A DNA stretch of 64,000 bases from the NCBI GenBank assembly GCA_021772935.1, contig JAJFLA010000044.1, positions 1-64,000 of the forward strand, given 5' to 3'. The stretch comes from Gammaproteobacteria bacterium. Its GTDB lineage: Bacteria > Pseudomonadota > Gammaproteobacteria > Xanthomonadales > SZUA-36. A model generated the notes under the pieces. That model made no database searches, was not told where the DNA came from, and saw nothing but the letters and a program-made list of their open reading frames with translations. Numbering within the stretch: the first letter of the stretch is position 1; every line of letters starts with the position of its first letter. Of the stretch, positions 3,519-19,392 are shown piece by piece. Both the position numbers and the translations under genes were made by a program.

Positions 3519-5955
<2,437 letters not shown>

Positions 5956-11669: not shown

Positions 11670-12920
11670 ATGAAGAAGTTCGTTTCGATGATATTGGTCA
11701 CAGGCTTATTGTTTTCCGTTGTAGCAGAGTCGGCCACGGTCAGCACCATATTACATGGTGGGACAATGGGTGGCGTTACGGTACACCCGACTACCGGTGA
11801 TATATATGCATCGGAATTTGGTGGGGTTTCCGATAGGACCCCAAATAAACGGGTTTTTCGGATAACCGCAGCCGGTGTCATCACGACCTTCGCCAGCGGT
11901 TTTACTAACGCCGAGGGCAACGACTTTGATTCGAATGGTAATCTTTTTCAGACCAATATGGGCGATGGCAGATTTAGCAAGATCACACCAAGTGGGGGGA
12001 TCACTACGTTCGCCAGATTTGGCGGGCCAAGTGATGTTGTTATTGATTCGCAAGATACAATGTACGTGGTTGATTTTAACTCCAGCCGGATCGCGAAGGT
12101 TTTACCCAACGGTTCGGTAACCACTGTCGTCCGTAGCTCGGTATTGAATCAACCCAATGGGATTACCCTGGATGCCAATGACAATCTTTATGTTAGCTCA
12201 TTTGGTGGTGGGGCCATATTCAAGCTTGAGAAAAGTGGCTCCTTCACCAGGTTTGCCCAGGTGCCGGGACAGGCGCCGCACCTCACCTCAGCCAATGGCA
12301 AGCTTTACGTAACATCCTGGAACAGACACGCGATATACGAAATACCGATTGAAGGCAGTTCGCATCCAGCCACGCTGATAGCTGGACAATCAGGTTTTAG
12401 GGGTGGCGCTGATGGTTCCGCCCTGGAAGCCACTTTCGACAGCCCGAATGGAATTACCGTGAATCGTGATGGCACGATTCTATACGTGAATGATAAAAAC
12501 GGTGTACGGCAAATCACCCTCGATGAACCTTCAACACCAATTACAAGCACTGTGGGTTTGAGTGGTGCGTGGTTCGATCCTGCTCTTGATGGAGAGGGTT
12601 ATAACCTGATTTTCTTCGCAGGTGGAATGGTGGTTTATTTTTATGGGTCGACCACAACAGGTGAACGTCTGTGGTTGTTATCTGATGTTTTTTCCGGGCC
12701 TCTGTCGTTCGGAGAAGTGGCAGAAATCACGATGTTCGAAGCCACAAGTGGAGAATTTTTGGCGCCCGTACCTTCGGCACAATCCTTAACCCCATGGGGC
12801 GTTCTCAAGATGCAGTTTGATGATTGTGCGAATGGTGTCTTTGAGCTCGACGGTGCTGATGGCGTCAAGTCGTCCAACGTACAACAGCTGGTCGGAATTG
12901 ATGGGGCCGTCTGCAACTGA
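11670..12920 (+). CDS. Secreted NHL-propeller protein with C-terminal WFDP module
   Basis: A 416-residue exported protein. Residues 1-22 are a signal peptide (MKKFVSMILVTGLLFSVVAES). Residues about 25-285 form a six-bladed NHL/SMP-30-like propeller with repeats such as GVTVHPTTGDIYASEF, GNDFDSNGNLFQ, DVVIDSQDTMYVVDF and GITLDANDNLYVSSF. A linker EPSTPITSTV leads into a C-terminal module of about 120 residues (297-416) that starts LSGAWFDPALDGEGYN, contains TPWGVL, and ends with a Cys pair (DDCANGV and the terminal VCN). The same module recurs at 13003, 14550 and, diverged, twice at 16165. It may bind a ligand or the surface. I know no experimentally defined role. AAAAGG precedes the ATG. Confidence 0.85.
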   Translation: MKKFVSMILVTGLLFSVVAESATVSTILHGGTMGGVTVHPTTGDIYASEFGGVSDRTPNKRVFRITAAGVITTFASGFTNAEGNDFDSNGNLFQTNMGDGRFSKITPSGGITTFARFGGPSDVVIDSQDTMYVVDFNSSRIAKVLPNGSVTTVVRSSVLNQPNGITLDANDNLYVSSFGGGAIFKLEKSGSFTRFAQVPGQAPHLTSANGKLYVTSWNRHAIYEIPIEGSSHPATLIAGQSGFRGGADGSALEATFDSPNGITVNRDGTILYVNDKNGVRQITLDEPSTPITSTVGLSGAWFDPALDGEGYNLIFFAGGMVVYFYGSTTTGERLWLLSDVFSGPLSFGEVAEITMFEATSGEFLAPVPSAQSLTPWGVLKMQFDDCANGVFELDGADGVKSSNVQQLVGIDGAVCN

Positions 12921-13002: not shown

Positions 13003-13479
13003 ATGAAAAAACTGAGTTCAATGATGGTGGTTTTAGGGCTACTGTTTTCGATGGCGGCAGAGTCGGCGCAGGTCAGTCTGAGTGCGGCTTTGACACCAAT
13101 CACAACGACTGCCGGTTTAAGTGGTGCGTGGTTCGATCCTGCTCTTGATGGAGAGGGTTATAACCTGATTTTTTTCCCAGGTGGAATGGTGGTGTATTTT
13201 TATGGATCCACCACAACGGGCGAACGTCTTTGGTTGTTATCTGACGTTTTTTCCGGGTCTCTGTCATTCGGAGAAGTAGCAGAAATCACGATGTTCGAAG
13301 CCACAAGTGGGGCCTTTCTGGCGCCCGTACCTTCAGCAGAATCCTTGACCCCATGGGGCGTTCTCAGGATGCAGTTTGATGACTGTGCGAATGGTGTTTT
13401 TGAGCTTGATGGTGCTGATGGCGTCAAGTCATCCAACGTACAACAGCTTGTCGGGATTGATGGGATAGTCTGCAACTGA
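13003..13479 (+). CDS. Secreted stand-alone WFDP-module protein
   Basis: A 158-residue exported protein that is a signal peptide (MKKLSSMMVVLGLLFSMAAES) joined by a short linker to one WFDP module (LSGAWFDPALDGEGYN to the terminal Cys). It looks like an NHL-fusion relative from which the propeller has been deleted. Its module differs from that of the 11670 product at only about six of 120 positions. An 82-bp gap follows 11670, containing a GCCGGC-cccc-GCCGGC hairpin at 12934-12949 with no T run. AAGG precedes the ATG. Bases 13093-13617 form one copy of a 525-bp direct repeat. Confidence 0.8.
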   Translation: MKKLSSMMVVLGLLFSMAAESAQVSLSAALTPITTTAGLSGAWFDPALDGEGYNLIFFPGGMVVYFYGSTTTGERLWLLSDVFSGSLSFGEVAEITMFEATSGAFLAPVPSAESLTPWGVLRMQFDDCANGVFELDGADGVKSSNVQQLVGIDGIVCN

Positions 13480-13617
13480 CAGCTGGGTTGGAAAAAAGCC
13501 AAGACCTATAATTTAAGGTGTTTCCGGTAGTGTGAGGTCACCAAAGTGATCTCGTGCTACCGGAAAATATTTAATTGTCGTCGGGTAGTCCCCTTTTCTC
13601 GTGCCGCAACATCCAGG
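13093..13617 (+). repeat. 525-bp direct repeat, copy A
   Basis: Copy A aligns without any gap to copy B at 14526-15050. It covers the WFDP-module coding region, the 3' untranslated hairpins and a tail. In copy B that tail is the last codons of the minus-strand gene at 15022-15204. In copy A the tail is a gene fragment that leads nowhere, so copy A is the derived copy. A shorter third match, coding part only, lies at 12534-12920. Confidence 0.9.
13521..13566 (+). terminator. Long conserved RNA hairpin, copy A (possible terminator)
   Basis: Two arms of about 21 nt flank a CAAA loop. All non-Watson-Crick positions in the + strand RNA are G-U wobbles. It lies 41 bp after the 13003 gene stop and is followed by AATATTTAATT, not a clean T run. 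A terminator or 3'-end stabiliser is likely. Confidence 0.6.
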
Positions 13618-13658: not shown

Positions 13659-14519
13659 ATGAAAAACTTAGTTTCGATGTTATTGGTCACAGGTTTATTG
13701 TTTTCCGTGGTAGCAGAATCGGCTACGGTCAGCACAGTGTTTTCCGGCGTGACCAATGGTGGCGTTACAGTGCATCCGGTCACAGGCGATATTTATGCCT
13801 CGGAGTGGGGTGCGACAAATGCTCCTAAAAACCCGACGCATAGGATTTTTCGAATAACACCAGAGGGCAATGCGACGCTTTTTGCTGGTGGCTTTGCCAA
13901 TGCAGATGGAAATGATTTTGATTCGAAAGGTAATCTTTTTCAGGTCAATTACGGTGATGGCAGATTGAGCAAGATCACACCGGGCGGTTCGGTCAGTTCG
14001 TTCTCCGGCTTCAGTTCGCCGACCGATGTTGTGATCGATGCAGAAGATACGATGTATGTGGCAGAGTGGGGCAACAATAAAATTTCAAAGGTCTTGCCTG
14101 ATGGCACCAGCAGCACCATCGTGCGCAGTGCAGTTTTAGATGAGCCTAGTGGTATCACAATCGATGCAATGGGGGATGTTTATGTCGCGTCCTGGGGTAG
14201 TGGCAGGATATTCAAGTTGGAAAAAGATGGTTCAATCAACTTTTTTTCCAACGTCTCGGGGAATACACCGCACCTCACATCCGCGAATGGTAAGCTCTAC
14301 GTAACCTCTGCTAGCACCCAGACGGTTTGGGAAATACCGCTTGAAGGTGAAACTCACAAAGCTACGCTGTTGGCCGGCCGATCAAATATTGCCGGTAATG
14401 CTGATGGTCCTGCACTGGAGGCCACATTCGACCAGCCAAATGCAATCGCCGTAAATCGAGACGGAACGACACTATATGTGACCGACCTGAATGGTGTAAG
14501 GCAAATAACTCTCGATTAG
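13659..14519 (+). CDS. Secreted NHL-propeller protein, cut from its WFDP module by an in-frame TAG
   Basis: A 286-residue exported protein with a leader almost identical to that of the 11670 product (MKNLVSMLLVTGLLFSVVAES), followed by an NHL/SMP-30-like propeller with the same blade order but clearly diverged sequence. It ends GVRQITLD-TAG. In the paralogue the same place reads GVRQITLDEPSTPITST, and here the codons after TAG continue in frame as PSTPITSTAGLSGAWFDP. A single codon change (GAA in the paralogue) therefore separates propeller from module. I set the start at the ATG at 13659, which follows AAAAAAGG. Upstream in-frame codons reach into the copied tail of repeat copy A and are not credible. 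Confidence 0.75.
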   Translation: MKNLVSMLLVTGLLFSVVAESATVSTVFSGVTNGGVTVHPVTGDIYASEWGATNAPKNPTHRIFRITPEGNATLFAGGFANADGNDFDSKGNLFQVNYGDGRLSKITPGGSVSSFSGFSSPTDVVIDAEDTMYVAEWGNNKISKVLPDGTSSTIVRSAVLDEPSGITIDAMGDVYVASWGSGRIFKLEKDGSINFFSNVSGNTPHLTSANGKLYVTSASTQTVWEIPLEGETHKATLLAGRSNIAGNADGPALEATFDQPNAIAVNRDGTTLYVTDLNGVRQITLD

Positions 14520-14912
14520 CCTTCAACACCGATCACAAGCACTGCCGGTTTGAGTGGTGCGTGGTTCGATCCTGCTCTTGATGGAGAGGGTTATAACCTG
14601 GTTTTTTTCCCAGGTGGAATGGTGGTTTATTTTTATGGGTCCACCACAACGGGCGAACGTCTTTGGTTGTTATCTGACGTTTTTTCCGGGTCTCTGTCAT
14701 TCGAAGAAGTAGTAGAAATCACGATGTTCGAAGCCACAAGCGGGGACTTCTTGGCGCCCGTACCTTCAGCAGAATCCTTAACCCCATGGGGCGTTCTCAG
14801 GATGCAGTCTGATGACTGTGCGAATGGTGTTTTTGAGCTCGACGGTGCTGATGGCGTCAAGGTGTCCAACGTACAACAGCTGGTCGGAATTGATGGGGCC
14901 GTCTGTAACTGA
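14520..14912 (+). pseudogene. Detached C-terminal WFDP module downstream of TAG
   Basis: This 130-codon continuation of the 13659 frame encodes linker PSTPITSTAG and a complete WFDP module ending VCN. It has no signal peptide. A TTG at 14550 (LSGAWFDP) is the only nearby start-like codon and lacks a ribosome-binding site. The module would reach the cell surface only by TAG readthrough. The coding sequence is still intact and very close to the other two modules, so either the stop is recent, the module is refreshed by gene conversion, or readthrough keeps it useful. Confidence 0.65.
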
Positions 14913-15050
14913 CAACTGGGTTGGAAAAGTGCTAAGACCTATAATTTAAGGTCTTTCCGGTAGCGTGAGGTCACCAAAGTGGTCTCGCGCTACCGGAAAA
15001 TATTTAATTGTCGTCGCGTAGTTACCTGTTCTCGTGCCACAACATCCAGG
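14526..15050 (+). repeat. 525-bp direct repeat, copy B
   Basis: Gapless partner of 13093-13617, by eye about nine-tenths identical in the non-coding part. This copy keeps the intact 3' end of the minus-strand small membrane protein gene, so it marks the original arrangement. Confidence 0.9.
14934..14999. terminator. Double hairpin between convergent genes (copy B)
   Basis: A first hairpin (14934-14955) has perfect arms AAGACCT and AGGTCTT. A second (14954-14999) has arms of about 21 nt around a CAAA loop with only G-U wobbles. It sits between the module end at 14912 and the convergent small membrane protein gene ending at 15022. That position suggests a bidirectional terminator. In copy A the first hairpin has one mismatch. 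Confidence 0.55.
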
Positions 15051-15204
15051 CAATGGTGCCGGGCCCAACAACTCCCAGTACACTGACCCACTGGGGTGTG
15101 TGCCACACACCGATAATCAAGTCGACAGCAAAGACCATTCTTAACAAATGGGCCGTTGCAACCACACTAAACAAAATAATTGCGAGTTTTGATCCGGTTT
15201 TCAT
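15022..15204 (-). CDS. Small conserved inner-membrane protein
   Basis: A 60-residue protein, MKTGSKLAIILFSVVATAHL onward, with two hydrophobic segments (about 6-25 and 36-54, separated by DLIIGVWHTPQW) and a charged end WLWHENR-like tail. It resembles a small two-span membrane family common in gammaproteobacteria with no assigned function. The ATG at 15204 is preceded by AAGAGG. A longer frame from 15288 would add 28 residues without support. Its last codons are duplicated in antisense at about 13585-13617. The 349 bp between this start and the next gene hold nothing I can name. Confidence 0.72.
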   Translation of the reverse strand: MKTGSKLAIILFSVVATAHLLRMVFAVDLIIGVWHTPQWVSVLGVVGPGTIAWMLWHENR

Positions 15205-15850: not shown

Positions 15851-16164
15851 GATTTCTCTGAATCACCCCGGTATTCCGGAGACTCCGTGTTTTGAGAGGG
15901 TGAAGTCACGTTTCATCAATAAGAGACTACCCGGATAAAAAGGAACGTGCAACACACATGGGTGTTGGAACAGCGGGGGAGCACAGTTCACTGTGGACTG
16001 TTATCCAGTACAGAAGTAAACGGTAAAATGGTACATTTGCGCATTCCGGATCGAAGTTCAAGGCAATAAAATCATCTTTACCTGTACTTACAGTCTGCTG
16101 ACACAAGATTACTGCAAGCTGGGTTTTAATATAGTCAGGAATTTCTCTGCCGGTATGTGTGCAA

Positions 16165-19100
16165 ATGAATAAGGCTTTCAAATATCTATTCTATATTATG
16201 TTATTGCTGGTATCGGTCAGCGATAACCTTGCACACGCCGAGACACTCGTTGACTCAAAGATGAGTGGGTCGTGGTTTGATCCTACCCACAATGGTGAAG
16301 GCTTTTTGCTGGAAGTGCTCGAGAGTGGCACGGTCGTTGTTTATTGGTTTACCTATGATGAGGCCGGTAACCAACGCTGGTTTTTCGGTACTGGATCGAC
16401 GCAGGGTGATACGGTCGTGGTCGATACATTATTGGCTGCGAGCGGGTCGGTTTTTGGCGAAGGGTTCGATCCTGATGATGTCGTATTTTCCGAGGTTGGA
16501 AACTTATCCATCAAGTGGGCCGATTGTTCGATTGCAACAGCAACCTATACCATTGATGGCGTGTCAGGTAATCAGGATCTAAGCCGCCTCACGACCCTCG
16601 CTGGTTTGGATTGTGGTGGCTCTGTTTCTACCCCTTCTCCCATGACCGGTTCCTGGTTTGACCAAACCCATGATGGTGAAGGCCTGCTGGTCGAAATCCT
16701 CAACGATGGCCGCGCACTTGTTTATTGGTTCAGCTATGACGGTGATGGCAATCCGGTCTGGTTTTTTGGTGTGGGTGAGCAGGATGGAGAGCTTATTTCC
16801 ATTCCTGAGATGTCCATCACCAGCGGCGGTCGTTTCGGGCCTGACTTTGACCCGGACCAGGTCCAGCTCGAGCCGTGGGGCAGCTTGTTGGTCGAATTGG
16901 ATTGTGATTTTGGTAAATTTGACTATGTTTCCGATCAGCTGGAATTTGGTAGCGGAAAGCAGACATTGACCCGTCTGACAAGCCTGGGAAACCCGATTTG
17001 TGAGGCCGCCAAGGCGCCCAATATACTGCTTGTTATTGCAGATGATCTTGGCCTCGATGCTTCCAACCAATACGATATCTCAGATGAGAACCCGACCACC
17101 CCCTCGCTCGACCAATTGGCGGCCGAGGGGCTGGTATTTGAAAATGCGTGGTCCAATCCGACCTGCAGTCCGACCCGTGCTGGCATCCTGACCGGAAAAT
17201 TCGGTACGCGTACCGGTGTATTGACCCCGGGGGATGTGCTTTCAGAAGATGAAACTTCGTTGCAGTCCTATATCCATCAACACCTGCCCGGAAAATATGT
17301 CGATGCCGTTATCGGCAAGTGGCACCTTGGCCCCCAGCCGGGCGGGCTCGACCACCCTTCGGATTTGGGTATTACTCATTTCGCCGGCATTACAGGGGGG
17401 GGTGTTGATGATTATGAAGACTGGGTGTTGACCACTAATGGCCAACGCAGCGATGAAACAGAGTATGTGACCAGTAAACTGGTTGATCTTGCCGTTGAGT
17501 GGACCGGACAGCAGGAGAATCCCTGGTTTTTATGGTTGGCTTTTAACGCACCGCATACGCCGTTTCACCTTCCGCCTGCAGATTTACATGACAGAGAATT
17601 GTCGGGGACCCAATCTGACATAGCCGCCAATCCATTGCCCTATTATCTTGCTGCCATCGAAGCGATGGACATGGAAATTGGCCGCCTTCTGGATTCATTC
17701 GACGCGGAAACGCGGGCAAATACAATCATCATTTTTGTGGGTGACAACGGCACGCCCGGCCAGGTCGCACAGTTTCCATACTCAAGGACAAAGGCCAAAG
17801 GCTCTCTGTACCAGGGCGGTATCAACGTACCCCTATACATATCTGGCCCGGGCGTGACTCGCACCAGTGAACGCGAAACCGCGCTGGTCAACACCACGGA
17901 TCTTTTCAGCACCATCGCCGCGCTTGCCGGTGTGAACGTTGACCAGGTCCATGACAGTGTTTCCTTTGCAGGCCTTGGCGGTGAGGATCGCGGGGTTGAG
18001 CGGTTCACTCAATATTCCGAAAAATCAACCGATACAGGTGAAGAATGGACCCTCTCTGATGGTCTTTACAAACTGATTGAATCCAGTGGAGGCACGCAGG
18101 AACTTTATCAGCTTTCGTTAGACCCTTTTGAAGCCACAGACCTGGTGGAATCGGGCGCTGCTCCAACTGATGTGGTCGATGATCTGCAGTTTCTGGCAGA
18201 TCAAATCAGGCAGGGGTCCAGTAAAACAGAGGGGTTCGCTGTTGTCGATACCGGTCAGGAAGCGTGCTACGACGACCTGGGCGCAGAAATATCCTGTCCT
18301 GCCAGCAATGAAGCTTTTTATGGTCAAGACGCTCAGTACACCGGCAATCACCCTGATTTCACTGACAATGGTGATGACACGGTATCAGACAATATCACTG
18401 GCCTGATGTGGCAATCAGACCCCGATACCAACCAGGACAGCCTCATTGATGCAAATGACAAACTGACATTCACCCAGGCGCAAGCCTATTGTGGCAACCT
18501 GGATTTGGCCGGTAACACCGATTGGTGGCTTCCCGATATCAAACAGCTTTATTCCCTGATTAACTTTGGTGGTATCGATCCGAGTGGTTACGAAGGCAGC
18601 AGTACAGCCGGCCTGGTGCCGTTCATTGATACAACGTACTTCAATTTTGCTTATGGGGACAGCAGTGTAGGAGAACGAATCATTGACGCGCAATATGCTT
18701 CGAGCACGCTTTACGTCTCCAATACTGCCAACGACGGGGGCCAAACCTTGTTCGGAGTCAATTTTGCCGATGGGCGTATCAAGGGTTATGGGCTCAGCCT
18801 TTTCGGCCAGGAAAAGACGTTTTATGTCATGTGCACACGAGGAAATAGCAATTATGGCCAGAATGATTTTATGGCCAACGGCGACGACACTATCACCGAC
18901 ACGGCGACCGGCTTGATGTGGGCGTTCGATGACAGTACCTCCAGCTTCAACTGGGAGCAGGCACTGCTGTGGGTTGAAGAACAAAATACTGCGGACTACC
19001 TGGGTTATGCCGATTGGCGACTTCCAAACGCCAAGGAGTTGCAAAGCCTGGTGGATTACAGTCGCTCGCCCGATACCAGCAACTCCGCTGCCATTGATCC

Positions 19101-19392
19101 GTTATTCAACGCCACCGGCATCATTAACGAGGCCGGCGATACCGATTATCCAGCCTACTGGAGTGGCACCACCCACATCAACTGGACGACAACACCGGGA
19201 GTGGCCAGTGTGTATATCAATTTTGGCCGCTCGATGGGTTATATGAACAACTCCTGGGTGGATGTACATGGTGCGGGTGCACAACGAAGCGACCCCAAGG
19301 CGGGTGATCCGGCTGACTACCCCACTGGCCTTGGTCCACAGGGTGATGCGGTTCGTATTTATAACCTTGTCCGCCTGGTTCGTACGCAGTAA
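16165..19392 (+). CDS. Exported sulfatase with two WFDP modules and a tandem Lcl/DUF1566 tail
   Basis: A 1075-residue multidomain protein with a signal peptide (MNKAFKYLFYIMLLLVSVSD, cleavage near AHA). Domain order: WFDP-type module 1 (MSGSWFDPTHNGEG, about 33-150), module 2 (MTGSWFDQTHDGEG, about 160-280), and a sulfatase of the alkaline-phosphatase fold (about 284-690). A C-terminal region of about 380 residues carries two Lcl/DUF1566-type units, each with a NGDDT-xxDxxTGLMW motif and a WWLPDIKQL or DWRLPNAKEL motif. Sulfatase signatures: metal Asp pair in IADDLG, formylglycine Cys334 in CSPTR, GKWHLG, APHTPFH and FVGDNG. A GTG two codons upstream is also possible. The modification enzyme is not in the window. 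The substrate is probably a sulfated glycan, which is inference. Confidence 0.9.
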   Translation: MNKAFKYLFYIMLLLVSVSDNLAHAETLVDSKMSGSWFDPTHNGEGFLLEVLESGTVVVYWFTYDEAGNQRWFFGTGSTQGDTVVVDTLLAASGSVFGEGFDPDDVVFSEVGNLSIKWADCSIATATYTIDGVSGNQDLSRLTTLAGLDCGGSVSTPSPMTGSWFDQTHDGEGLLVEILNDGRALVYWFSYDGDGNPVWFFGVGEQDGELISIPEMSITSGGRFGPDFDPDQVQLEPWGSLLVELDCDFGKFDYVSDQLEFGSGKQTLTRLTSLGNPICEAAKAPNILLVIADDLGLDASNQYDISDENPTTPSLDQLAAEGLVFENAWSNPTCSPTRAGILTGKFGTRTGVLTPGDVLSEDETSLQSYIHQHLPGKYVDAVIGKWHLGPQPGGLDHPSDLGITHFAGITGGGVDDYEDWVLTTNGQRSDETEYVTSKLVDLAVEWTGQQENPWFLWLAFNAPHTPFHLPPADLHDRELSGTQSDIAANPLPYYLAAIEAMDMEIGRLLDSFDAETRANTIIIFVGDNGTPGQVAQFPYSRTKAKGSLYQGGINVPLYISGPGVTRTSERETALVNTTDLFSTIAALAGVNVDQVHDSVSFAGLGGEDRGVERFTQYSEKSTDTGEEWTLSDGLYKLIESSGGTQELYQLSLDPFEATDLVESGAAPTDVVDDLQFLADQIRQGSSKTEGFAVVDTGQEACYDDLGAEISCPASNEAFYGQDAQYTGNHPDFTDNGDDTVSDNITGLMWQSDPDTNQDSLIDANDKLTFTQAQAYCGNLDLAGNTDWWLPDIKQLYSLINFGGIDPSGYEGSSTAGLVPFIDTTYFNFAYGDSSVGERIIDAQYASSTLYVSNTANDGGQTLFGVNFADGRIKGYGLSLFGQEKTFYVMCTRGNSNYGQNDFMANGDDTITDTATGLMWAFDDSTSSFNWEQALLWVEEQNTADYLGYADWRLPNAKELQSLVDYSRSPDTSNSAAIDPLFNATGIINEAGDTDYPAYWSGTTHINWTTTPGVASVYINFGRSMGYMNNSWVDVHGAGAQRSDPKAGDPADYPTGLGPQGDAVRIYNLVRLVRTQ

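Follow-up and report, generated by a model that had tools for sequence, protein, structure and literature searches.

A stop codon at the joint of propeller and module

When an in-frame TAG parts a secreted β-propeller from a C-terminal module that remains open and almost unchanged beyond it, is the codon a device for making two proteins or the mark of a recent loss? The question is posed by a small tandem gene family within the window—the whole 64,000-nucleotide stretch of gammaproteobacterial DNA analyzed here—in which all the features described lie on the forward strand. Copy 1 (11670..12920) encodes an intact NHL propeller followed by the module (416 aa), copy 2 (13003..13479) a signal peptide followed by the module only (158 aa), and copy 3 (13659..14519) a secreted NHL/Vgb-type β-propeller of 286 aa that starts with ATG and ends with the TAG at 14517-14519. 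The copy 3 propeller scored over the Pfam cut-offs for SGL (7.8e-14), Vgb_lyase (1.5e-13) and NHL (1e-11), and its N-terminus reads as signal-peptide-like (MKNLVSMLLVTGLLFSVVAESA). Further downstream, the N-terminus of a sulfatase (16159-19392) contains two more, diverged copies of this module (16258..16926).

The frame spanning positions 13659-14912 runs through 286 residues to ...VRQITLD, meets the TAG, and then continues for 130 sense codons to a TGA at 14910-14912; this open tail (14520..14912), comprising the C-terminal module and its stop, is probably left untranslated. At the same joint, copy 1 reads LDEPSTP, with a GAA codon (12525-12527) in the place of the TAG. Since GAA and TAG differ by two bases, the codon replaced was probably a one-step neighbour such as GAG. 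The module encoded by the tail shares 92% protein identity with copy 1 and 94% with copy 2. An earlier note on this DNA had described just this arrangement—a TAG splitting the propeller from its module where copy 1 has GAA, a frame open for 130 codons up to a natural stop, and a tail close to the other two copies—and our analysis bears out the description, coordinates included. Among 279 long ORFs in a 464-kb sample of the genome, 18 (copy 3 included) had an in-frame extension of at least 130 codons after their stop. Most such extensions presumably represent the following gene; that of copy 3 is more than chance because it is a homologous domain.

A terminator-like element, a 20-bp hairpin with an A/T-rich stretch behind it, lies beyond the copy 3 module (14955..14998; RNA fold z -7.8), and a near-copy of it is found after copy 2 (13522-13565). 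The differences between the two hairpins (13521-13566 and 14954-14999) preserve stem pairing, exchanging G-C for G-U or A-U. The non-coding stretch after copy 2 as a whole (13480..13617) is ~91% identical to the one that follows copy 3 (14913-15060).

To place the stop codon in an evolutionary context, we examined NHL propellers from five relatives, one from the same genus (L022), two from the same family (L023 and L025) and two from the same order (L024 and L026). In all five, the frame continues past the propeller into a module of this type with no intervening stop; hence, the copy 3 TAG stands where both its paralogue and its relatives have a sense codon—the pattern looked for in a nonsense-truncated paralogue. 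With all five relative propellers entering their modules in this way, the fusion of NHL propeller and module is probably ancestral and the copy 3 TAG a derived loss. A scan of GTDB r220 contigs returned distant propellers only, with nothing closely related to the locus among them, and a family-wide search found no module outside this genome closer than ~48% identity.

Taken together with the results below, these observations make it likely that the copy 3 TAG is a real nonsense mutation that recently truncated one member of a recombining tandem family, leaving as its product the propeller without the module.

Similarity of the module extends to synonymous and non-coding sites

The near-identity of the tail had suggested in the earlier note that something keeps it intact, on the premise that a dead tail should drift. 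This premise fails: the synonymous sites and the downstream non-coding DNA are alike, too. Between copies 1 and 3, fourfold sites were identical at 43 of 104 positions before the TAG and at 56 of 66 after it, with 60 of 66 identical between copies 2 and 3 after the TAG. Correspondingly, a pairwise codon model gave a dS of ~1.23 for the propeller part versus 0.15-0.17 for the copy 3 module. The similarity of copies 2 and 3 reaches past the final stop codon into non-coding DNA (106 of 118 positions identical, hairpin included), and this flank has no further copy in the genome. Moreover, the site patterns within the module are mosaic (maximum chi-square 12.9, permutation p=0.0036), with copy 3 being mainly copy-2-like up to codon 102 of the module alignment and copy-1-like beyond it. 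Both signatures of gene conversion or exchange are thus present—a rise in synonymous and non-coding similarity within the tract, and a mosaic of donors inside it. Because synonymous and non-coding similarity is high and the module is mosaic, these patterns indicate that the module DNA was homogenized recently by recombination, either gene conversion or unequal exchange, and not kept by selection acting after the TAG. Selection on the protein would not keep synonymous or non-coding sites alike, and the identity of the tail is therefore no sign of selection. The drift argument takes propeller and module to have diverged over the same length of time, an assumption that the same sites indicate to be false.

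Substitutions private to the copy 3 tail

The substitution pattern past the TAG, a check proposed in the earlier note, speaks on two counts: the synonymous sites turned out to be alike, which removes the apparent constraint, while the changes specific to copy 3 are skewed towards non-synonymous ones, with borderline significance. Changes private to one copy amounted to 6 non-synonymous and 4 synonymous in the copy 3 tail, versus 10 and 26 in copies 1 and 2 combined (Fisher p=0.067). In a three-branch codon model, omega was 0.79 for the copy 3 tail versus 0.155 for the other branches (LRT p=0.051), the former not being different from 1 (p=0.77); in a parametric simulation, 14 of 300 replicates reached the observed LRT, 8 of these in the same direction. 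Two of the private changes, G62E and F97S, fall at columns constrained across 57 family modules (mostly G/N/D and mostly hydrophobic, respectively). The tail retains the invariant module residues G22, G24, W49, G91, C100 and C129. With ~10 neutral substitutions, the probability of meeting no further stop is 0.75, and the unbroken frame of the tail is therefore uninformative. Overall, the substitutions look like relaxation rather than constraint, a signal that is borderline because it comes from 10 substitutions. Peptides private to the copy 3 tail would include those around SFEEVVEITMFEATSGDF.

Decoding of TAG in this genome

We also examined whether TAG is read in any unusual way. RF1 is present in the genome, the only match to the PylS profile lies below the cut-off—as is likewise the case in twelve of the control genomes—and none of the 40 tRNA matches carries a CTA (CUA-reading) anticodon. 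TAG behaves as an ordinary stop, terminating 55 of the 279 long ORFs in the 464-kb sample, long in-frame extensions not being significantly enriched after it (7/55 vs 15/224, p=0.16). Reassignment of TAG, or its use for pyrrolysine, is rejected on these grounds. The RNA fold at and after the copy 3 stop (14517-14616) was of mild stability, with a z of -1.7 and 10 of 200 shuffles as stable. Decoding in this genome is normal and nothing marks the copy 3 TAG as recoded; a low background of readthrough at this codon is possible.

A weak tRNA-like match (C17:1206) was set aside: it has by eye a CCA (Trp-like) anticodon, and ARAGORN calls no tRNA there. The stop inside the prfB match is not damage, the 360-aa frame being preceded by the usual CTT TGA frameshift site.

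A probable recent truncation and its alternatives

The truncation of copy 3 can be laid out as a succession of events. A tandem family encoding secreted NHL/Vgb-like propellers with a C-terminal β-rich module would have undergone recent gene conversion or unequal exchange, homogenizing the module, together with the 3' flank in copies 2 and 3. A sense codon at the joint of propeller and module in copy 3 would have changed to TAG, presumably after the exchange. Translation most likely ends at this codon with efficient termination, and the complete propeller would fold and be secreted without the module; the tail would be transcribed but unread and starting to drift, and copies 1 and 2 would still supply the module. 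Of the three explanations offered by the earlier note, recent mutation and gene conversion (or module exchange) both enter into this account, whereas functional readthrough gained no positive support from tRNA, PylS, RF1, RNA structure or the five relatives.

An error in the consensus sequence, such that the cell has a sense codon and an intact gene, is unlikely. Repeated modules that are 92-94% identical invite mis-mapping, and the genome is in 56 contigs; however, the TAG is two bases away from the copy 1 codon and comes with no frameshift, copies 1 and 2 have no TAG at this position that could have been mis-mapped, and the tail looks relaxed.

Functional readthrough, in which a minority of ribosomes would use a near-cognate tRNA at the TAG to yield two secreted forms, one with the module and one lacking it, is very unlikely. 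It draws on the position of the stop exactly at the domain joint—as expected of a functional two-product stop, and a point against simple truncation—on an open tail with its invariant residues kept, and on the hairpin beyond the tail, which is terminator-like, so that the transcript probably includes the tail. In-frame stops with dN/dS below 1 have been reported in bacteria (PMC7918605), and E. coli ranks TGA > TAG > TAA for readthrough (PMC11126739). The genome has a second module-bearing gene that a derived TAG interrupts (C46:3884-3886), a fact that likewise counts against truncation alone. Against readthrough stand a tail omega indistinguishable from 1, a synonymous similarity that accounts for the identity with no need of selection, the failure to find a CUA tRNA or a PylS over the cut-off, a downstream RNA fold with a z of only -1.7, five relative propellers with no stop at the joint, and a module already supplied by copies 1 and 2. 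That a leaky TAG would act as a switch setting the ratio of module-free to module-bearing propeller, with the gene at C46:3884-3886 under the same control, is highly improbable. If the tail were translated on its own, through a restart at TTG 14550 or coupling at the TAG, it would give a free module like that of copy 2, a module standing alone after a signal peptide, and a 120-aa ORF does run from 14550. However, the product would have no signal peptide, no Shine-Dalgarno-like sequence is visible by eye, the TTG falls where the conserved module begins and the tail carries no purifying signal, making this the least credible of the alternatives.

Relation to known systems

The truncation of copy 3 is in itself ordinary. 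Homogenization of tandem paralogues by gene conversion is a known process in prokaryotes. As in concerted evolution, the similarity between the paralogous segments, also at synonymous sites, exceeds that in the remainder of the gene; in contrast to the concerted evolution of a whole conserved gene, the tract here is a single domain with its 3' flank, within a tandem family of few members. Single in-frame nonsense codons are widespread in bacterial genes, mostly short-lived and on the scale of polymorphism, with purifying selection seen overall across strains (Belinky et al. 2021, PMC7918605). Like the genes in that survey, copy 3 has one in-frame TAG, an open frame after it and few other differences; unlike them, it comes from one genome, and its tail has an omega near 1 and has been homogenized by neighbouring copies. 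In E. coli reporters, readthrough of TAG lies between that of TGA and TAA (PMC11126739). Compared with pyrrolysine or amber-recoding systems, the in-frame TAG is alike, whereas PylS falls below the cut-off here and no CTA-anticodon tRNA was found. Copy 3 fits the known short-lived stops combined with paralogue homogenization and represents no new kind.

Among propeller proteins, the family resembles the virginiamycin B lyase-like/NHL group in scoring over the SGL, NHL and Vgb_lyase cut-offs, and adds an unnamed C-terminal module. Relative to secreted propellers of the ScyD/ScyE type, the copy 3 propeller falls just under the NCBIfam ScyD/ScyE cut-off (79.1 vs 80).

Two implications follow for reading such loci. 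In a recombining tandem family, protein identity past a stop codon is no evidence of readthrough, and synonymous sites and non-coding flanks should be checked first. Were readthrough true, copy 3 would be a natural case in bacteria of a domain whose attachment is controlled by a TAG.

The module family and neighbouring observations

The module is an unnamed secreted-protein domain of ~120 aa, predicted to be all-β, with an invariant G-x-G, W and G and two near-invariant Cys. It matched no Pfam or NCBIfam model over the cut-off, CBM_56 appearing in one module only and below its cut-off. Copies within the window lie at 12528-12917, 13093-13476, 14520-14909 and 16258-16926, with further ones at L004-L020 and L087-L115; the genome holds 23 matches in all. 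Across the family, 38 of the 39 genomes carry the module, which occurs there on propellers, on kelch proteins and on sulfatases. An AlphaFold model of the module had a mean pLDDT of 65.9 and gave no convincing match among PDB structures (best E 0.054, to designed beta barrels), and the sequence itself had no match in the PDB.

The second TAG-interrupted gene mentioned above (L084:3776-5578, G000:C46) encodes a secreted two-module kelch-repeat protein, interrupted within its first module by the TAG at 3884-3886. A 64% identical orthologue (L179) has a conserved tryptophan there, and 563 codons remain open afterwards. The location of this TAG inside a module near the start of the protein, as against the position of the copy 3 TAG at a joint, suggests that the two stops are not one regulatory design; with 23 module matches in the genome, two broken genes are not very surprising.

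Finally, scattered copies of a repeat, GGGGTCAGATTCAAATGCA, were observed around prfB (L137) and at L127, L130, L133, L148 and L163; they frequently lie close together in pairs, occur in either orientation and are possibly REP-like.
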